Below the pieces are notes generated by a model. That model saw only the letters and a program-made list of their open reading frames with translations, ran no database searches and was not told the origin of the DNA. Of a stretch of DNA of 64,000 nucleotides, positions 6,252 to 43,190 are shown piece after piece. Every line of letters begins with the position of its first letter. The first letter of the stretch is position 1. Both the position numbers and the translations under genes were made by a program. Source of the stretch: Verrucomicrobiaceae bacterium (GTDB lineage Bacteria; Pseudomonadota; Gammaproteobacteria; Pseudomonadales; CAMLJR01); the NCBI GenBank assembly GCA_028293825.1, contig JAQGNY010000053.1, positions 1 through 64,000 of the forward strand. Direction: 5' to 3'.

Positions 6252-7508
6252 TTAGGTAGCGACGTGCTCAGCGTGGCGGGTCGCGTACAGGCCGGCGCGC
6301 ACGGCAATCGCAGCGCGGCGCTCGGCCAGATCAACGCGCGGACAACCGGCCGGCAAGTACTGTTCGAGGTCCGCGACCTTGACCGCGCGGCAATCGCGAA
6401 TCAGGCCGTCGCCGCTGGTGCCGTTTGGTAAGCCCTGCCAGCGCAGCAGAAACCAGCCTTCGTGCAGGCCGACGCTATCGATCCAGTTATGCACGCCCGG
6501 ATCGCGCGTGGCGACCACATAAGTAATGCTGCCGTCGTTGTTAACCGCGCGTTGCGTACGATTCAGGCTGCTCTGCCGATACAGCGGATCGGGTGCGATG
6601 GTCCACGGATCGGTGACTTGAAAACCGGTATAAGCCGCGCCGCCATCGGTGATCGTGATGACCAATGCCTGGTCATCGCTGAGCTGGTAACGACCGCCGG
6701 CCAAAAAGCCCCAGCTCGCCTCGCGACCGATTGGACCGACCACGGCGTTCGGAGTCGGATAACCGAGAAACGTATCCTTGAAACCCGCCCAAAAACGGAT
6801 AAACGTCGGCAGAAATTGCGCTACGCGCGCAATCAATTCGCTTTCAGTGCGCGGCGGCGGCGCGATCGCTCCGGCGGTGCGGCGAATGCTCAACGCAGTC
6901 GGGCTTTGCGACCAGTCGGCCAGACTGTCGCGTGCGTACAGCGTCAAATTGCCCGGTAAAGTCTGAATGTGGTTGGTGCGCCCTTCCGCCGATTCTTTCG
7001 ACACCGTGATGCGAAAATGGCCGTTGGCGTCGGTCACGATCTGCTGCGAGGTCAGCATGAAGCGATGCGGCCCAATGCCGGCGTGATCGTCCAGTTCATC
7101 CTCAAGCTTCAGGCTGAAATTGGCGCTGCGATTGGAATCGAAGCGGCCGAGAATTTCGTATTCGGAATCGCCGTCGATGGGAATGTCGCGGTTGGCGTTG
7201 TCGGGGTTGTCGACCGCCACCGCGGCGCCGGTATAGATATGGCCGAACCAGCGCCGCGGCGTGTTATCCACGTTCCAGATAATTTTGGGCCGCGCGCGAT
7301 CACTGTTGGCTTCGCGCATGGCCAGCGCCAATGTCCATTGATCCAGCGCACGCTCCAAACCGAGCCGGCCTGAGTTGAGTTTAATGGCCGGGTCCGCCAA
7401 CAACTGCTGGCGCCCTACTTCACGCGCGGCGCGCACGGCTGGCGCTTCGATCAAACGCAGCGCCAGCGATTCCACCTCTTTCTGGTCCTGCGTGGCTAAC
7501 GGACTCAT
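6252..7508 (-). CDS. DUF1214-like conserved protein
   Basis: Protein of 418 aa without a signal peptide. The C-terminal half has features seen in DUF1214 proteins: DGGAAYTGFQVTDPWTI, then NNDGSITYVVATRDPGVHNW followed by LHEGWFLLRWQGLP. The N-terminal part is mostly helical and carries RRWFGHIYTGAAVAVDNPD. DUF1214 proteins are common in steroid- and terpenoid-related clusters of proteobacteria and actinobacteria, but no reaction is established. An AGAGGT ribosome site precedes the ATG. It lies 36 bp after the VOC gene and is probably co-transcribed with it. The domain name is a pattern-level assignment and would need a profile search. Confidence 0.65.
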   Translation of the reverse strand: MSPLATQDQKEVESLALRLIEAPAVRAAREVGRQQLLADPAIKLNSGRLGLERALDQWTLALAMREANSDRARPKIIWNVDNTPRRWFGHIYTGAAVAVDNPDNANRDIPIDGDSEYEILGRFDSNRSANFSLKLEDELDDHAGIGPHRFMLTSQQIVTDANGHFRITVSKESAEGRTNHIQTLPGNLTLYARDSLADWSQSPTALSIRRTAGAIAPPPRTESELIARVAQFLPTFIRFWAGFKDTFLGYPTPNAVVGPIGREASWGFLAGGRYQLSDDQALVITITDGGAAYTGFQVTDPWTIAPDPLYRQSSLNRTQRAVNNDGSITYVVATRDPGVHNWIDSVGLHEGWFLLRWQGLPNGTSGDGLIRDCRAVKVADLEQYLPAGCPRVDLAERRAAIAVRAGLYATRHAEHVAT

Positions 7509-7544
7509 CGCCGTACCTCTTTTGGTCTGGATTAAATCGATTGA

Positions 7545-8081
7545 TTACGCGAACGCAGCCGCGAGTGAGCGACGCGGATCGGTATGACCATCCCACTCGA
7601 GATGCGCGCGCTCCATGTTGCCGAATTGACGCGCAATCAACGGCGACATTTCCATCAACTCGACGAAGCCATTGCTATCGCGCTGCGTGTCGAACAGGGT
7701 GCAGCGCTCGCCGCTCGGCAAGGTGCCGTGGCTCGCCACTTCGTAGCCTGCGTCGCTCAGACGCTTGAAGCCTTCGTCGTAATCCACTCGCAGCATGACG
7801 TGGTGAAATCCGGGACCGCGACTGTCGAGCACTTCGCTGAATATCGACGGCACCGCGCGCAGCGGTTTTACCAATTCGATCAACAATCCGCCGCTGAAAC
7901 CGAATGCAACTTGAATTGATACTTCGGCCGGTTTGCCGCGATAAGTTTGATTTTCGGTCAGCTCCATATCGCCGATGAAAAACGGACCGGCGCCGATGAC
8001 GTTGATCCAATAGTTGAGGGCGGCGTCCATGTCGTTGACGACGTGACACACTTCGATGATGGATTGATCTGGTTGCAACAT
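7545..8081 (-). CDS. VOC (glyoxalase/dioxygenase fold) family protein
   Basis: Protein of 178 aa with two beta-alpha-beta-beta-beta modules. Likely metal ligands are His in IIEVCHVVNDMDAALNYW, His in GPGFHHVMLRVDYDEGF and Glu in SNGFVELMEM. The open frame starts earlier, but the ATG at 8081 has GAGG 5 nt upstream and begins at the conserved module, so I use it. It is the first gene of the leftward cluster that ends with the SnoaL-like gene. VOC proteins include extradiol dioxygenases, epimerases and lyases; this one is too short for a two-domain extradiol dioxygenase and its reaction is unknown. Confidence 0.82.
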   Translation of the reverse strand: MLQPDQSIIEVCHVVNDMDAALNYWINVIGAGPFFIGDMELTENQTYRGKPAEVSIQVAFGFSGGLLIELVKPLRAVPSIFSEVLDSRGPGFHHVMLRVDYDEGFKRLSDAGYEVASHGTLPSGERCTLFDTQRDSNGFVELMEMSPLIARQFGNMERAHLEWDGHTDPRRSLAAAFA

Positions 8082-8147
8082 GAGAACCTCGATGCGAGCG
8101 CATGCGACAAAGCCGAACTGTTTAGCTCCTCTCTTCGAAAACCACAG

Positions 8148-8188
8148 CATTTCAAATCGGGGGTGTTAAAAAAACAATATTTGAAATG
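8148..8188. promoter_or_regulatory. 10-bp inverted repeat upstream of the VOC-led cluster
   Basis: CATTTCAAAT (8148-8157) and ATTTGAAATG (8179-8188) are exact reverse complements with centres 31 bp apart, about three helical turns. They lie 67-107 bp upstream of the VOC start on its promoter side. This is the shape of a site for a dimer of dimers or of a long hairpin in the leader. No regulator gene for the cluster is present in the window. Confidence 0.4.
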
Positions 8189-8310
8189 GGTATTTGAAAA
8201 ATCGGAATTGCGGTGCGGCTGTCGCTGTTAGATTTTTATCGGTGCTGAGTTAAGACAACCGCCCCAACATATCACAATTTTTTGGACACGCTGGCGCAAA
8301 TTTGATTACG

Positions 8311-8326
8311 GTTTTGACATCAAAAC
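8311..8326. promoter_or_regulatory. 7-bp dyad next to the alpha-E terminator
   Basis: GTTTTGA (8311-8317), CA, TCAAAAC (8320-8326) is a perfect dyad. It lies 2 bp beyond the terminator hairpin of the alpha-E gene and about 230 bp upstream of the VOC gene. It could be an operator, or its A/T-rich halves could simply serve as the terminator tail. Confidence 0.3.
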
Positions 8327-8327
8327 A

Positions 8328-8345
8328 GCGGCGCCGGGGCGCCGC
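8328..8345 (-). terminator. Terminator of the alpha-E gene
   Basis: GCGGCGCC (8328-8335), GG, GGCGCCGC (8338-8345) forms a perfect 8-bp GC stem. On the leftward transcript it is followed by TGTTTTGATG. It lies 20 bp after the alpha-E stop codon, so it fits an intrinsic terminator of the ATP-grasp / alpha-E block. Confidence 0.6.
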
Positions 8346-8365
8346 ACGGGAGGATTAAAAGAGGG

Positions 8366-9310
8366 TTACGCAGCCGCGACCGCACTGCCAAGACCGCTGA
8401 AATAAGCCAATTGCAATTCGTCGTGAATTTGCGCAAAGCCGATCTGCAATTGATCGACAAACATTTGCAGCTCAGCCTGTTTCAGCTTGTCGATGTGCGC
8501 ATTATCGAGCTGACGTTTTACGCGGTGCACAATGAGCTGTGCCTTTTCATGATTCGGTAAAAAGCCAACAGCGTTGTTCACCGAATTAATACTAAAGCTG
8601 AGCGAACGCGGAAATACATCCGACTGAAATAAGAAGCGCAATACTTCAGTGCGCTGCACGCGCAACTGCATCGCGCGGCGATACATTTGATAACCGGACA
8701 ATGAACGCAGAACGCTCATCCATTGCAGATTTTCGTACGTCGCCACAGTCGCTGTGGTCGAAGGCAATAAATTAGACGAGCGAATATCGACGATGCGACT
8801 GGTCATATCCGCGCGCTCCAAATAACGACCGATACGCAGAAAAATATAACCGGCATCGTGATTCATGGTGCCGGCCAACATGCCAGTCAGCATTTGGCAT
8901 TGCCGAATAACTTCGTCGAGAAACGTAAACCGACCGCGCTTACTCGGCGCTTGTGGCGCCTGTTCCTTCGCATACAGATACAGCGAATTCATCGTCTCCC
9001 ACACTTCGCGCGGAATGACATCGCGAATCGTACGCGCATTTTCGCGTGCGCTGGCAAGACACGACAAAATCGAAACCTGACTGCTCGGTTCGCTGATTAA
9101 AAACTTCAGCACCGCGCGCTCGTCGTAATCATTGCTCGAATACATCGCCTCGGCGCCAGTGATTGCAATCAACTGGCTCCAGATCGGCTTCAGCCCTTTC
9201 GGCAAATCGAGCGTAAGGTTCGCCGTCACGCTAATTAAACGCGCGATGTTTTCTGCGCGCTCAAGATAACGCGCCATCCAATAAATATTTTCCGCCACTC
9301 GCGCCAGCAT
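8366..9310 (-). CDS. Alpha-E domain protein (DUF403)
   Basis: Protein of 314 aa that starts with the family hallmark MLARVAENIYWMARYLERAENIAR and is all-helical afterwards, with a second AGYIFLRIGRYLERADMTSRI motif. This is the alpha-E domain, which travels with circularly permuted ATP-grasp proteins and transglutaminases. The upstream in-frame extension was dropped because GGAG lies 7 nt before the ATG at 9310. The domain has no known enzyme activity; comparative genomics places it in predicted peptide ligation or modification systems. It follows a stand-alone ATP-grasp gene, with an AT-rich gap of 176 bp. Confidence 0.88.
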   Translation of the reverse strand: MLARVAENIYWMARYLERAENIARLISVTANLTLDLPKGLKPIWSQLIAITGAEAMYSSNDYDERAVLKFLISEPSSQVSILSCLASARENARTIRDVIPREVWETMNSLYLYAKEQAPQAPSKRGRFTFLDEVIRQCQMLTGMLAGTMNHDAGYIFLRIGRYLERADMTSRIVDIRSSNLLPSTTATVATYENLQWMSVLRSLSGYQMYRRAMQLRVQRTEVLRFLFQSDVFPRSLSFSINSVNNAVGFLPNHEKAQLIVHRVKRQLDNAHIDKLKQAELQMFVDQLQIGFAQIHDELQLAYFSGLGSAVAAA

Positions 9311-9486
9311 GTTAATTCTCCAGAACAATCATTGCGCAAATACGCTTCGCCGATGTGTTAATTCTTTCACTTCCGCATTTCAAAACTATTTTTTTAACTA
9401 TTAAATTATTGACTTAATTTTTACGTTTTAATTTTTCTCTGAAAACGCACGCCCTAACTTTCTCTTAAAAGCGAGCGCCGTTAACT

Positions 9487-10938
9487 TCACGCACCTTCGT
9501 CGATGATCCAGGTATCTTTGGAGCCACCGCCCTGCGATGAGTTCACCACCAGCGAACCGCGCCGCAATGCCACGCGCGTTAAACCGCCTGTCGTCACATG
9601 AATTTGATCGCTCGATAAAATAAACGGTCGCATGTCGACGTGACGCGGTTCCAGCTTGCCTTCGATCAGCGTCGGCACAGTCGATAAATTCAACGTCGGC
9701 TGTGCAATGTAATTGCGCGGATCATCTTTAATAAGCTGAGTAAATTTTTCACGCTCGGCCTTGGTGCTGTGCGGACCGATCAACATACCGTAGCCACCAG
9801 ATTCGTTGGCGGGTTTGACGACCAATTCTTCGAGGTGCTCGAGCACGTACTTGCACTCATCTTCTTTCATGCACAAATAGGTCGGCACATTCGGCACAAT
9901 AATTTCTTCGCCGAGGTAATACTTGATCATGTCGGGCACAAATGCGTACACAACCTTATCGTCGGCAACGCCTGCACCCGGCGCGTTAGCCAAAGAAACA
10001 TTTCCTTTCGTCCACGCGCGCATTAATCCCGGCACACCGAGCGTGGAATCCTTGTTGAAAACTTCAGGATCGAGAAATAAATCATCGACGCGGCGATAGA
10101 TAACATCGACGCGCTTCAAACCCTGAATTGTTTTCATGTAAACACAATCGTCATCAGGTACAACAAGGTCGCGACCTTCGACTAATTCGCAACCCATTTG
10201 CTGTGCCAAATAACAATGTTCGAAATACGCCGAGTTATAAATACCGGGCGTTAAAACGGCGACCTGCGGATAATCCGCCGGACGCGGCGATAATGCCGCG
10301 AGCGTATCGAATAATTGCGACGGATAATCGTCGACCGGAAGAATCGAATAATCGCCGAATAAATCCGCGAACACGCGCTTGATAACCTGACGATTTTCCA
10401 ACAGATACGAAACACCGGACGGTACGCGCAGGTTGTCTTCTAACACATAAACTTGGCCGTCGCTGTGGCGCACCAAATCCGATCCGCAGATATGCGCCCA
10501 CACACCAAACTTTGGATTCATGCCGACACATTGCTTGCGAAAATTTTTCGATTTTTTCAGCAGATCGCCGGGAAACACTTTGTCTTTCACGATTTTTTGA
10601 TCGTGATAGATATCGTCGATAAACATATTCAACGCGCGCACGCGTTGTTTCAAACCGGCATCGATACGATCCCATTCACGCTTCGACATCACACGCGGAA
10701 TAATATCGAACGGCCACTGCCGATCAATCGAGCCACCACTTTCATTGTAAACAGTGAAGGTGATGCCCATTTCTTTAATGGTTAAATCGGCGCTCGCCTG
10801 CAATTGCTCAAGCTCGCTGCCTTCCAGCGTTTCCAAATGCTTCGCTAACGCTTTTGCTACCGATCGCGGTTTGTTGCGTTGGTCGATCATTTCGTCGAAC
10901 AAACCGGCCGCTTCGTATTCTTTCCAGTTAATGCCCAT
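9487..10938 (-). CDS. Circularly permuted ATP-grasp type 2 protein
   Basis: Protein of 483 aa matching the circularly permuted ATP-grasp family (DUF404/DUF407 regions). Visible family segments include KRVFADLFGDYSILPVDDYP, VAVLTPGIYNSAYFEHCYLA, YRRVDDLFLDPEVFNKDSTLGVPGL and the ATP-binding VVKPANESGGYGMLIGP, ending in SSQGGGSKDTWIIDEGA. Such enzymes are predicted to join a carboxylate to an amine using ATP, probably on a peptide. With the downstream alpha-E gene it forms a split version of the 837-aa fusion encoded at 12256-14769. Substrate unknown. The ATG is preceded by an AAGAGAG stretch. Confidence 0.9.
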   Translation of the reverse strand: MGINWKEYEAAGLFDEMIDQRNKPRSVAKALAKHLETLEGSELEQLQASADLTIKEMGITFTVYNESGGSIDRQWPFDIIPRVMSKREWDRIDAGLKQRVRALNMFIDDIYHDQKIVKDKVFPGDLLKKSKNFRKQCVGMNPKFGVWAHICGSDLVRHSDGQVYVLEDNLRVPSGVSYLLENRQVIKRVFADLFGDYSILPVDDYPSQLFDTLAALSPRPADYPQVAVLTPGIYNSAYFEHCYLAQQMGCELVEGRDLVVPDDDCVYMKTIQGLKRVDVIYRRVDDLFLDPEVFNKDSTLGVPGLMRAWTKGNVSLANAPGAGVADDKVVYAFVPDMIKYYLGEEIIVPNVPTYLCMKEDECKYVLEHLEELVVKPANESGGYGMLIGPHSTKAEREKFTQLIKDDPRNYIAQPTLNLSTVPTLIEGKLEPRHVDMRPFILSSDQIHVTTGGLTRVALRRGSLVVNSSQGGGSKDTWIIDEGA

Positions 10939-38550: not shown

Positions 38551-39975
38551 TCATTGAATATTAGCCAACGCGACAGCGGCTAAACGCTCCGTAGCTGTCA
38601 CCTTGGTCAGTCGCGGCTGCCAAAACGGGTTATATATATTGCCGTATTCGCGGCCGCCTTGCGGACGCGCCCACAGATCGTCGGGGCGAGAGAAATAAGC
38701 TTCTGCCTTTGCCATCGCGTGCAAGCGATTGTTCGCCATACCACCCGGCTGCTCCAAATCCACACTGGTGCCCGCCTGCGCAGAACCAATATCGCGTGCG
38801 GTGCGCACACCATCGTTACCGCCCTGCGGTTTGGTTAAAAGAATAACGGCTGCAGGCATCGTATCCAGCAGACCCTTCTGGGTGATATCGGAGAATGTTC
38901 TGAGACCACTAAACGAGCCGACTTTACTGGCATTTTGAAATTGGTTAGCACCAATCCGTGAGGTGTTGGGATTTATCTGCCACGTGCTGCCAAAGTTTTG
39001 GCCACGAAAATTGACGTATCGAATGGTGTCTCCAGCTTGTCCAGCACCCCATCCTAAAGGCAATATCTCTCGCCAACTCCTCCATCCGCACCCAGAAAAG
39101 CTACAGTGCCATGTACGCTGATGGGTAGCCAGTGTGTCCATAGCAGCCCAGGTGTAGTAGGGAGCGTTGCTGTTACTGCCAATAAGCTCCGTGCCACCCG
39201 CTCTCTCAAGTTTGAACTGAAGCGGCGGAATAGCAGGACTTTTAAATAATGTGTAAGTGCGATTGGATGTAAAACCATCACGCGAACGCAATGTGACATC
39301 CCTGAATTCATCCAGGCGTACTTTATCTTCACGCCAATTGCTCCCGCTGCGATTTTTAACACTATCTGGGCTGTAGCGAGAAATAGCGTTGCTGTAGGTC
39401 GTCACCAATTGGGCAAGCAAAGTAGAGCTGGTGATCAATCCTGTGGAAACACCCGGATCATTGGCGCGCACTACTTGTTGCATGGTAAGTGGGATTTCAA
39501 CAACTACTGTGTTGTGCATAATAAATTGTGCTCGTGATAGCACGTAATCGAGGTAGGAATCTTCTCCGGTGACAAAAATTCCACCTGCATACTCAACAGC
39601 GTTTTTAACGATATTCGAATAATTTGCGACGACATTAATGATTGCCCCCCAATAGGGAACCAAAGAGGTGTACCTACGAAGGTTACCTATTACGTTGTCG
39701 AGAAAGCGCATCCAAGACACAAGAGAGACAGCCTGAGCAACAGCCACCTGATTGGCGATCATCGAGCGATTCATATACGCCTGAAAATTCAAATCGCGTG
39801 ACTGCAACATGGCAACGCTGTGTGCTGCAGCATCCGTTGTGTTTTGCAATCGTGTTTTTTCATTCGCAATATGACCTGTGTTGTAAACAAACAACACCAT
39901 CACGGCCATTACCGCCGCCATGGCAGCCATATACACCACCACAGCACCGTGTTGACGATTTCGCATCCCTTTCAT
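38551..39975 (-). CDS. tadG: TadG-like pilus-associated protein
   Basis: Protein of 474 aa. ATG at 39975 has AGGA 9 nt upstream; a TTG at 39984 is possible. It has a short basic leader, one membrane helix (AVVVYMAAMAAVMAVMVLFV) and then the TadG hallmark GHIANEKTRLQNTTDAAAHSVAML. No Glu follows the helix start, so it is not a prepilin. The remainder is a large periplasmic/extracellular part. TadG proteins anchor the Tad complex to the envelope or cell surface. A short degraded copy of its AHSVAMLQSRDLNF region lies upstream at 40793-40837. Confidence 0.82.
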   Translation of the reverse strand: MKGMRNRQHGAVVVYMAAMAAVMAVMVLFVYNTGHIANEKTRLQNTTDAAAHSVAMLQSRDLNFQAYMNRSMIANQVAVAQAVSLVSWMRFLDNVIGNLRRYTSLVPYWGAIINVVANYSNIVKNAVEYAGGIFVTGEDSYLDYVLSRAQFIMHNTVVVEIPLTMQQVVRANDPGVSTGLITSSTLLAQLVTTYSNAISRYSPDSVKNRSGSNWREDKVRLDEFRDVTLRSRDGFTSNRTYTLFKSPAIPPLQFKLERAGGTELIGSNSNAPYYTWAAMDTLATHQRTWHCSFSGCGWRSWREILPLGWGAGQAGDTIRYVNFRGQNFGSTWQINPNTSRIGANQFQNASKVGSFSGLRTFSDITQKGLLDTMPAAVILLTKPQGGNDGVRTARDIGSAQAGTSVDLEQPGGMANNRLHAMAKAEAYFSRPDDLWARPQGGREYGNIYNPFWQPRLTKVTATERLAAVALANIQ

Positions 39976-40009
39976 TACACTCAATCCTGTTCATTGAAAG
40001 CTATCCAAC

Positions 40010-40702
40010 TTATTCCGTACCTGGCACGTATTCCTCTTTCCCCCCTATACAGACGGCCGCCAAACCTATTTGCTCTGTGTTCACCCAGTATCTAGTGTCC
40101 CCTGAGGGCTCCAAGCCTAGATGAAAAGTCTCCCCGCCACCCGCACCAATGTATTGCGCGGCATATAATCGATCCTCTACTTTCGATAATGGCAGCACAG
40201 CAACTTTTCTCAGCCATTGATCGGATACACGTCTCATGTATAACCTCGTCTTTTCTGCCTGCCGCACGCAATCCATACGTCCAGATTGACGCCCCCACCC
40301 ACCGACCGCATTTAAATGTTCCTCATATAAGGCACGCAACATTTTGTGGTTTGTCATTGCCGCCTGCAAATGAGCTTTCGTCAACTGGAACCCGGGGCTA
40401 TTTGTGTCCTGCTCAATTTTTTTAGAAAGCTTATAAAACTCTGGATTTAACAGTTCATATTTTTGCGTATTCCAATCACCAATTTTTTTAAACGCTTCGC
40501 TCTGCGCCGGTGTCGGAAAGTTTTTTAACGCTCCATTCTTCTCTGACGCCTGAATTTTCTTTAATGCTGCATCTAAAACATCCAGTTCTTTCTGGGTTGG
40601 AGGTTTTGGTTGCGCCTGCGCGACAACCACAAAAAATGGAAAGCAAAAAATAACGAATACATAAATCGCAATTTTCCTGGGGAATTTGTACTGAATATTC
40701 AT
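40010..40702 (-). CDS. Hypothetical exported protein of the Tad locus
   Basis: Protein of 230 aa with a Sec signal (PRKIAIYVFVIFCFPFFVVVAQAQ) and a soluble, charge-rich helical domain (QKELDVLDAALKKIQASEKN, LTKAHLQAAMTNHKMLRALYEEHLN), then GGGETFHLGLEPSGDTRYWV near the end. No family is recognised. It starts the tadG-TadE run and is separated from the next upstream gene by a gap holding the tadG remnant. A role in pilus biogenesis is only inferred from position. Confidence 0.65.
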   Translation of the reverse strand: MNIQYKFPRKIAIYVFVIFCFPFFVVVAQAQPKPPTQKELDVLDAALKKIQASEKNGALKNFPTPAQSEAFKKIGDWNTQKYELLNPEFYKLSKKIEQDTNSPGFQLTKAHLQAAMTNHKMLRALYEEHLNAVGGWGRQSGRMDCVRQAEKTRLYMRRVSDQWLRKVAVLPLSKVEDRLYAAQYIGAGGGETFHLGLEPSGDTRYWVNTEQIGLAAVCIGGKEEYVPGTE

Positions 40703-40792
40703 ACCGAATTTTCAAACATAAATAATTTATCCATCTATCTTCAAATTTAAAATTTGGCTTGATCTTGATCATCGAGCAATTAATATATTCGT

Positions 40793-40837
40793 TAAATTAA
40801 AATCACGCGGCTGCAACATCGCAACGCTGTACGCCGC
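40793..40837 (-). pseudogene. tadG remnant (15 codons)
   Basis: Read on the minus strand this stretch gives AAYSVAMLQPRDFNL, against AAHSVAMLQSRDLNF encoded in the intact tadG at 39784-39828. I count 36 of 45 bases and 11 of 15 residues the same, in the same frame. Similarity fades on both sides and the surrounding gap has no open frame. It is best explained as the last trace of a second tadG-like gene lost by deletion. Confidence 0.6.
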
Positions 40838-40940
40838 CTCGCTGAAAAATTTTTACGCCCCAGGATTAATGCTCAATATTTCCTGCATTCTCGACCCCCA
40901 TAAGCGGTATAACATCTTTCCAGAACTTTTCTATTTCCGC

Positions 40941-41498
40941 TCAATGCGTATAAACAAAATAATAATTTTGGTCATGGGGGTTGATGCCCGGCTGACCAAG
41001 TGACGGATTCACAATCCGCCCTGCAACAGAGTCCAGCATTTGGTAGTAATACATCGCAACAAACCACTGAGCGTATTTTCTTGGTGGAAAGTCGGGCGGC
41101 AATCCAGAACGGAATTGCGGATCTCTGAAAATTTTTTCACACCCTTTTATCACTGGCGGCTTTATTTCAGCATCTGCCAGCTTTCCGAAAGCTTCCATCA
41201 AAACTAAATTTTTGTCGGATTTAGCTGCTTGCAGCGTCGCGCGACGATATGCTTCCCAGGTAAAGCTATCAAAATGAACATTCAGCTCGATCTCTTTCGC
41301 ATCCTCGTCGGTTGGCAGCAAAATGATGGAACGACGATCAATTTCCTTTTGTACTTCTGCTCCAGTTTTCCCTTCAAAAGCTTGGTCTTCGGTTTGATTA
41401 TCCGGCTCATCAGCAAAAGAGCCGGGAGCTATCGCAATCGCCCCCCACAAAAAGAGACCTATCAAAACTTTTCGAATACTGTTTTTTCGCAACTGCAT
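40941..41498 (-). CDS. Hypothetical exported protein of the Tad locus
   Basis: Protein of 185 aa from the Met of MQLRKNSIRKVLIGLFLWG, which gives a Sec signal; the open frame reaches 41561 without one. The mature part has many charged residues near the start (DEPDNQTEDQAFEG) and Tyr-rich WFVAMYYYQMLDSVAGR near the end. No family is recognised. It lies between the first Flp-type pilin and the tadG region, in the same direction. Function unknown; a pilus accessory role is inferred from position. Confidence 0.6.
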   Translation of the reverse strand: MQLRKNSIRKVLIGLFLWGAIAIAPGSFADEPDNQTEDQAFEGKTGAEVQKEIDRRSIILLPTDEDAKEIELNVHFDSFTWEAYRRATLQAAKSDKNLVLMEAFGKLADAEIKPPVIKGCEKIFRDPQFRSGLPPDFPPRKYAQWFVAMYYYQMLDSVAGRIVNPSLGQPGINPHDQNYYFVYTH

Positions 41499-41573
41499 GG
41501 CAATAGATTTCTCTAATATGCAATCAACAGATGAAAATATCGCCCCGGCAAGCCGAGGCAATATTCAGACAAA

Positions 41574-41846
41574 TTATTGATTGCCGGTGTTGTAGGCACC
41601 CATGCCTTTGTCTTGATGAGCATCTGTAGCCGCGCTGGTAGAACTTGATTTGGATTGCGTCAGAGCGGTGTTCGTCTGCCCCGCCACTTCCTGCCCTAAG
41701 CTGGCCAACTGCGACCGAATCGTCTGACCGAAGAGCTTGTAGGTACTGATCCCGGCAACAGCAACCAATGCCACGATGATGATGTATTCCGTCATACCCT
41801 GGCCAAGCTGACGAATTTTTCCTTGCTTGCGAATAGATGATTTCAT
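41574..41846 (-). CDS. flp: Flp-type prepilin (first copy)
   Basis: Protein of 90 aa. ATG at 41846 has AAGGGA upstream; the open frame extends further but the class III leader fixes this start. The leader MKSSIRKQGKIRQLG is followed by QGMTEYIIIVALVAVAG, with Glu-Tyr at +5/+6 after the Gly cleavage site, then a polar Ser/Thr-rich tail (QSKSSSTSAATDAHQDKG). This is likely the major or an alternative Flp pilin. It is the first gene of the leftward Tad locus and faces the DUF4892-OmpA gene. Confidence 0.82.
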   Translation of the reverse strand: MKSSIRKQGKIRQLGQGMTEYIIIVALVAVAGISTYKLFGQTIRSQLASLGQEVAGQTNTALTQSKSSSTSAATDAHQDKGMGAYNTGNQ

Positions 41847-42209
41847 TGGTGATCCCTTTCCTAGTGAGAGATATGCACGAACAAACAGGCGCAGCAAATC
41901 CACAAGACAGGAAGGGAAAATTGAAGGGGATTCCAAAAAAAAGAAATCATCCGTGATTCAAATCCATATGACTTGTAGACCTGCTCTCCGTGCTCGATCA
42001 TGCAGCGACTAGCTTACCATCAGCCAATAGTCAAACAATGACAGCCATCACATTTTCCGTTTTTTCGCAGACGAAACATTTCCCGTGCTTCATTTATTAA
42101 TCGTGCAAGACAGTCTGCACTTTATATCGCAACAGAGATTGAAAAACTTTATTGATCGGCATAAATTTGTCGCGCTTACTAATAGCACGGATCAAAAAGG
42201 GAATTTTCA
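41847..42209. other. Divergent control region of the Tad locus and ompA-like gene
   Basis: This 363-bp gap separates the leftward flp-led locus from the rightward DUF4892-OmpA gene. It should carry the main Tad promoter on the minus strand, but I could not find a convincing sigma-70 or sigma-54 pair for it. A rightward promoter is listed separately. No RNA gene or coding frame is seen. Confidence 0.45.
42139..42167 (+). promoter_or_regulatory. Sigma-70-type promoter for the DUF4892-OmpA gene
   Basis: TTGAAA (42139-42144) and TAAATT (42162-42167) are spaced by 17 bp. Transcription would start near 42174, giving a leader of about 36 nt that contains AAGGGA just before the ATG at 42210. This is a visual match to the consensus and has not been scored. 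Confidence 0.4.
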
Positions 42210-43190
42210 ATGAAGCTCTTACGAAATTTTTTATTTTTTTCTCCTTTATTTTATGCGCTGACCTGCTCTGCGGCCGGCAACACAGACGTAAGTGGGAGCA
42301 AGGATCATCCACTTTTAAGCCGCTATCCCGATACCCACATCATTGAATATCGATTCAGTGAATATGATGAGCTTGAGGTAAGAACTGCAAAATCGTTTAA
42401 TGACCACGGTTTCAAGCACCCATCGAAAAAGCTGGAAGGAAAACTCACCACTATTGAATACCAATCCAACACAAATGCACCCTTTACTCAGGTACTAAGA
42501 AACTTCGGAGAAGGGCTCAAGAAAGCTGGATTTAAAGAATTATTTTCTTGTGACGGCCAAGACACCTGCGGTCCGCTATTTGTCACTCACGCCATGCTTG
42601 AAACTCCTATTCACAGTAACTTTCGAGACTACCCAACCTCGACGGATAGCACTAACGGTAGCCGCTATGGCTATTGGAGCGGCTCATTAACTCGCAGCAC
42701 CGGTGATGTTGCTGTGACTGTTTTAATTGGCGAGGATGGCAAATATCGCGAAAAAGTTGACATCATTGTTGATATCGTCGAATCAAAGCCGATGGAAAAT
42801 AATCTTGTGGTGGTCAATCCACAGTTTCTATCAGACTCCATTGTGCGTGATGGAAAAGCAGTACTTAACGGCATACTCTTCGATACGGATAAAGCCACTA
42901 TAAAAACTGAATCGTCTGCTGCGTTGAAGGCTATCGCGGATTATATGGAGCAGAATAAAACCTCCAAAGTTTTTATTGTTGGTCATACCGATACAACGGG
43001 GGACTTCCAACACAACACCGGCCTTTCGCAGCAGCGAGCTCAAGCCGTTGTCGATACGTTATCAAGCACTTATAAAATCGATAAAAGTCGATTGCGCGCA
43101 GCGGGAGTTGGACCGGTATCTCCAGCAGCAAGTAACTCGACTGAGGAAGGTAAAGCTAAGAATCGGCGGGTTGAAATGGTGTTAGATTAA
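42210..43190 (+). CDS. DUF4892-OmpA family outer membrane protein
   Basis: Protein of 326 aa with a Sec signal (residues 1-22), a DUF4892 domain (HIIEYRFSEYDELEVRTAKS, KLEGKLTTIEYQ, VLRNFGEGLKKAGFKELFSC then DTCGPLF) and an OmpA domain (LFDTDKATIKTESSAALKAI, VFIVGHTDTTGDFQHNTGLS, KAKNRRVEMVLD). It should bind peptidoglycan from the outer membrane. It diverges from the Tad locus and shares its domain order with the protein at 29017-30003, so the pair bracket the pilus genes. Confidence 0.88.
   Translation: MKLLRNFLFFSPLFYALTCSAAGNTDVSGSKDHPLLSRYPDTHIIEYRFSEYDELEVRTAKSFNDHGFKHPSKKLEGKLTTIEYQSNTNAPFTQVLRNFGEGLKKAGFKELFSCDGQDTCGPLFVTHAMLETPIHSNFRDYPTSTDSTNGSRYGYWSGSLTRSTGDVAVTVLIGEDGKYREKVDIIVDIVESKPMENNLVVVNPQFLSDSIVRDGKAVLNGILFDTDKATIKTESSAALKAIADYMEQNKTSKVFIVGHTDTTGDFQHNTGLSQQRAQAVVDTLSSTYKIDKSRLRAAGVGPVSPAASNSTEEGKAKNRRVEMVLD

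Follow-up and report, generated by a model that had tools for sequence, protein, structure and literature searches.

The locus analysed here raises the question of whether a short stretch of spacer resembling tadG is the last trace of a second TadG protein. It lies in the window, a 64,000-nucleotide stretch of DNA in which an earlier note had read fifteen codons on the minus strand as the remains of an older tadG duplicate, one that diverged under selection before its deletion, so that the locus would once have had two TadG-like proteins as it still has two Flp pilins. The explanation that we hold with high confidence is that positions 40767-40837 are a non-functional fragment of tadG, the product of a copying event in this lineage or a near sister that took in at least the N-terminal region of the gene. 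The following features of the locus were considered:

38551-39984, minus strand: intact tadG (PF13400, Tad, E 1.2e-8), the source of the fragment or its sister; matching segment 39757-39828
40010-40702, minus strand: 230-aa ORF between the fragment and tadG; no relatives found in the searches described below; signal-peptide-like start by eye
40767-40837, minus strand: broken tadG fragment spanning codons 53-76; one base deleted; equal to the intact gene at 57 of 71 aligned bases
40793-40837, minus strand: in-frame stretch of 15 codons inside the fragment, the one described in the earlier note; 36 of 45 bases equal to tadG
40866-40885, minus strand: candidate extra 20-base collinear tadG remnant, marginal
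40941-41561, minus strand: 206-aa ORF between flp1 and the fragment; nearly without relatives; signal-peptide-like start by eye
41574-41936, minus strand: flp1, Flp-like pilin gene; weak Pfam match (E 0.03); in other genomes, related genes directly precede tadG

The tadG-like stretch and its ends

The minus-strand sequence of 40793-40837, AAYSVAMLQPRDFNL, was aligned with positions 39784-39828 of tadG, and the agreement at 36 of 45 bases reported earlier was confirmed, as were the third-position changes, which account for 7 of the 9 mismatches. Its ungapped score of 24.5 exceeded the maximum of 16.0 obtained when the 238-base gap was dinucleotide-shuffled 2000 times; the best score against the rest of the window was likewise 24.5 and was reached in none of 100 shuffles. 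The match proved to be longer than first described and extends to 40767. With one base deleted, 40767-40837 aligned with 39757-39828 at a score of 68, compared with a maximum of 31 in 2000 shuffles, and the same match had an E-value of 4e-10 in a self-comparison of 14 kb. The part added past the 1-base deletion agrees at 19 of 21 bases and beat all 5000 shuffles. Chance similarity was thus effectively ruled out, since no shuffle reached the observed score in either of the two 2000-shuffle tests, the E-value is very low and the match goes on collinearly past the stretch that was originally chosen.

A search with 39700-40940 of the genome that contains the window (96% complete) found nothing better elsewhere than E 0.10, and the intact tadG is the sole place with a PF13400 match. 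The intact neighbour is a member of the PF13400 TadG-like proteins, the family from which the fragment derives; unlike its neighbour, the fragment has no PF13400 profile match itself, covers residues 53-76, mostly outside the Tad match of intact TadG (residues 13-59), and has a broken frame.

The reading frame of the fragment comprises 27 codons from stop to stop and is broken by the 1-base deletion. The 24-residue window that it covers ranks 11th of 453 for conservation in an alignment of TadG with 24 relatives, and Arg73, present in all 24 of them, is replaced by Cys. Third positions hold 9 of its 14 mismatches. Upstream of the fragment, the 20-base collinear piece had a score reached by 57 of 2000 mononucleotide shuffles; downstream of it, no tadG similarity was found (1767 of 2000 mononucleotide shuffles reached the score). 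Inspection by eye of the flanks in all three minus-strand frames found neither NEKTRLQNT (upstream) nor ANQVA to SW (downstream), both conserved stretches of TadG. Because these motifs are absent from the two flanks, the ends of the fragment were taken as breakpoints, and on sequence grounds both look like it. With the fragment masked, a search of 39985-41573 revealed no other trace of tadG (best score 25, compared with a mean of 24.5 and a maximum of 34 in 200 shuffles).

Short gene fragments in spacers are ordinary. The 71-base piece has the significant similarity to an existing gene that characterizes a pseudogene fragment, together with disabling changes, namely the 1-base deletion, the 27-codon frame from stop to stop and the absence of the conserved flanks. 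Like the prokaryotic pseudogene fragments treated in a published survey (Genome Biol 2004, 5:R64; PMC522871), it combines homology of a spacer to a known protein with a frameshift. The pipeline described there required more than one disablement, whereas the tadG fragment has one clear disablement, the frameshift, in only 24 codons. As sources, the same survey lists native duplicates that became disabled, single-copy genes that decayed and horizontal transfers that failed (PMC522871). We infer that the tadG fragment is without function and most likely dead.

The flp1-tadG junction in relatives

The arrangement of tadG in related genomes was examined in three samples, each of which counted the genome of the window itself. 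Matches to tadG were obtained in 16 of 95 relatives at E 0.001, in 37 of 390 genomes of the order at E 1e-8 and in 30 of 321 genomes of the class at E 1e-8; the first two samples overlap. The detailed comparison comprised 24 loci: one from Marinobacter salicampi (L023) and 23 from 22 genomes of the order, which represent 22 of the 36 relatives with a tadG match in the order sample. The other 14 were left out, as were G037 and G061, the two weakest in the sample of 95. Both flp1 and tadG were recognised in 22 of the 24 loci, and L061 and L066, with no flp1 at E 0.01, were dropped.

None of these 22 loci had a tadG-like gene between flp1 and tadG, and the second tadG that the earlier note suggested looking for in relatives was not seen in the sample. 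In 20 of the 22, the flp1 stop and the beginning of the tadG match are 15-451 bases apart. Junctions longer than 250 bases were scanned for sense ORFs of at least 56 aa, shorter ones being unable to hold tadG. Two of the six scanned junctions each hold one such ORF, of 159 aa in L023 and of 154 aa in L057; the remaining four hold none. By eye, the junction ORFs of L023 (7309-8000) and L057 (7114-7694) are alike, and the two ORFs of the window do not match them. Accessory genes may thus have a slot at the junction between flp1 and tadG.

A profile of the TadG N-terminus had exactly one match in each of 53 related loci, 29 of which are stretches of at most ~4.4 kb, and one in the window, where it misses the fragment, so that it speaks for whole TadG N-termini only and not for fragments. 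Similar fragments were sought by comparing relatives' junctions with their own tadG, using 200 mononucleotide shuffles each; with the 5 junctions under 60 bases left out of the 22, the remaining 17 held no convincing tadG fragment. The lowest shuffle counts belonged to L032 (score 33, 2 of 200) and L058 (score 25, 7 of 200), compared with a score of 68 for the window.

The parallel drawn earlier between two TadG and two Flp proteins did not hold. In ten of the 22 loci (L023, L027, L028, L031, L032, L057, L058, L059, L062, and L063), recognisable flp1 and flp2 accompany a single tadG, so a double Flp is no sign of a double tadG, and a link of the fragment with the two Flp pilins was rejected. 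In the other 12 loci flp2 was not recognised, which says little for so short a protein.

Among 17 chosen genomes, PF13400 matches were found in 15, and an adjacent pair solely in G202. The pair (locus L117, G202:C32:62000-81900; genes 7203-9017 and 9068-10933) belongs to a second cluster of that genome, downstream of cpaB-, cpaC-, and tadA-like genes. Another genome, G057, has a second PF13400 place ~10 kb from tadG, outside the junction. The sole congener searched (G001, same genus, 89% complete) yielded no tadG and no close tadA match, and its genome thus seems to lack the Tad cluster; no close relative carrying the locus was found among the genomes searched. In L061 (G304:C1:612000-628000), a shortened tadG (7504-8391, 295 aa) is preceded by a weak flp1-like piece (7186-7275, E 0.07) and no other Tad genes were recognised in 16 kb, perhaps as the relic of a lost Tad cluster.

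Ancestry of the fragment and selection on it

The fragment agrees with the tadG of its own genome at 57 of 71 bases in a fixed alignment, with the best of 24 relatives' tadG genes at 45 of 71, and the own tadG agrees with its best relative at 47 of 72. The fragment is far closer to its own tadG than to those of the 24 relatives, which argues for copying in this lineage or a near sister; at least a partial duplication of tadG thus took place there. With only 71 bases, origin and history both rest on few characters, and the copy may have started as a short partial copy, as a full copy that was later deleted or as a recombination scar. At one position the fragment keeps the Tyr of 22 of the 24 relatives and the intact tadG has His, so the change from Tyr to His most likely occurred on the branch of the intact gene.

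The mismatches were further assessed for signs of selection. When intact tadG genes that are 75-90% identical are compared in pairs, third positions hold 99 of 126 mismatches. If only the intact gene had been constrained, the expected share would be ~46%, a value assumed for a constrained gene changing at ~70% of its third positions; under this model, the probability of 7 or more third-position mismatches among 9 in the 45-mer is 0.056, and that of 9 or more among 14 in the fragment is 0.13. Two freely changing copies, with one third of mismatches at third positions, are disfavoured (P 0.008 for the 45-mer and 0.017 for the fragment), whereas constraint on both copies (70%) fits the third-position counts as well. 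These counts do not discriminate between constraint on both copies and constraint on the intact gene alone, so the codon argument is weak and past selection on the lost copy is no more than possible. Of the claim that the duplicate diverged under selection, the compatibility with constraint on both copies stands, but a copy never under constraint also fits over the 71 columns (9 of 14, P 0.13, with the assumed share of 46%).

These results bear on the proposal that a complete, working second tadG diverged under selection and was later deleted down to the fragment, which we regard as conceivable yet unlikely. It would account for the Tyr shared with 22 of 24 relatives and for the 7 of 9 third-position mismatches in the 45-mer, whose counts constraint on both copies would explain. 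Tandem TadG-like genes can also exist, as the adjacent PF13400 pair of G202 illustrates at another locus, although its members are only 31% identical and belong to a different cluster. The junctions of the relatives, with no tadG-like gene in any of 22 and a single TadG N-terminus in all 53 profiled loci, argue against the proposal, as do the absence of further tadG traces in 39985-41573 and the fit of a copy free from the start. What stands of the "older tadG duplicate" is the descent of the fragment from tadG and its broken state; that a second TadG once worked here is possible, but lacks support.

Flanking ORFs and the origin of the junction

The 230-aa and 206-aa ORFs sit where most of the examined relatives have flp1 beside tadG, and the fragment therefore most likely marks the rearrangement that placed them there. 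For the 230-aa ORF, searches of 390 order and 175 class genomes found one genome each, in both cases that of the window, and searches of plasmids and viral contigs found no relatives. The 206-aa ORF was found in two of the 390 order genomes (one match weak) and in one of the 175 class genomes (that of the window). The weak match, in G177 (E 5e-4, one internal stop), was dropped because no Tad gene was recognised within 19 kb of it. Neither ORF was present in the 24 compared loci at E 0.01. Pfam gave one sub-cut-off match for the 230-aa ORF (E 0.04) and NCBIfam none; the 206-aa ORF was named by neither. The G+C content decreases to 0.35-0.36 in 40500-40799 and 40650-40949, intervals that take in the fragment together with the beginning of the 230-aa ORF; so low a value would suit a spacer or foreign DNA.

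Another explanation, to which we give a tentative and minor share of belief, is that the 230-aa ORF and the present tadG were acquired from a sister lineage through recombination at the conserved N-terminal part of tadG, with the fragment left upstream as the stump of an older resident gene. The position of the fragment in the best-conserved part of TadG is consistent with such an exchange, and so are the unrelated ORFs that L023, L057 and the window, 3 of 23 loci, have in the flp1-tadG junction, the ~20% divergence, which fits either a sister species or an old duplicate, and the decrease in G+C content around the fragment and the beginning of the 230-aa ORF. However, the searches revealed no donor carrying the 230-aa ORF (the genome of the window stands alone among 390 order and 175 class genomes), and the G+C content has no sharp break at tadG. 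A broader version, in which lineage-specific, secreted-looking accessory genes are swapped at the junction through recombination at the highly conserved N-terminal part of tadG, with the fragment as the scar of one such swap, appears rather doubtful.

A functional copy, either as a plus-strand RNA antisense to tadG mRNA or as a minus-strand leader peptide upstream of the 230-aa ORF, is very improbable: a promoter-like match on the plus strand (40698-40726) is directed into the fragment, but promoter-like sites in 39700-42300 are no commoner than in shuffles (4 compared with 4.3 expected), Rfam has no matches in 39500-42300 and no terminator-like sites lie between 40837 and 41594.

The preferred explanation, a non-functional fragment left by copying, contains the full second tadG and the recombination scar as narrower versions, so the odds given to them overlap with its own. 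On this view, a copy of at least the N-terminal region of tadG arose in this lineage or a near sister, and ~71 bases of it (codons 53-76) remained upstream of the 230-aa ORF and decayed by substitution and a frameshift. The fragment probably dates from the rearrangement by which the two flanking ORFs came to lie between flp1 and tadG. The fragment is an ordinary gene remnant that carries little weight alone; it most likely marks a rearrangement between flp1 and tadG and gives no indication of a pilus machinery that once employed two TadG proteins. A search for literature joining the Tad pilus, TadG and Flp with evolution and gene loss found none. Beyond flp1, an OmpA-family gene (42210-43190) is divergent from the Tad genes of the window, and a relative of this gene lies near flp1 in L032 and in L057.
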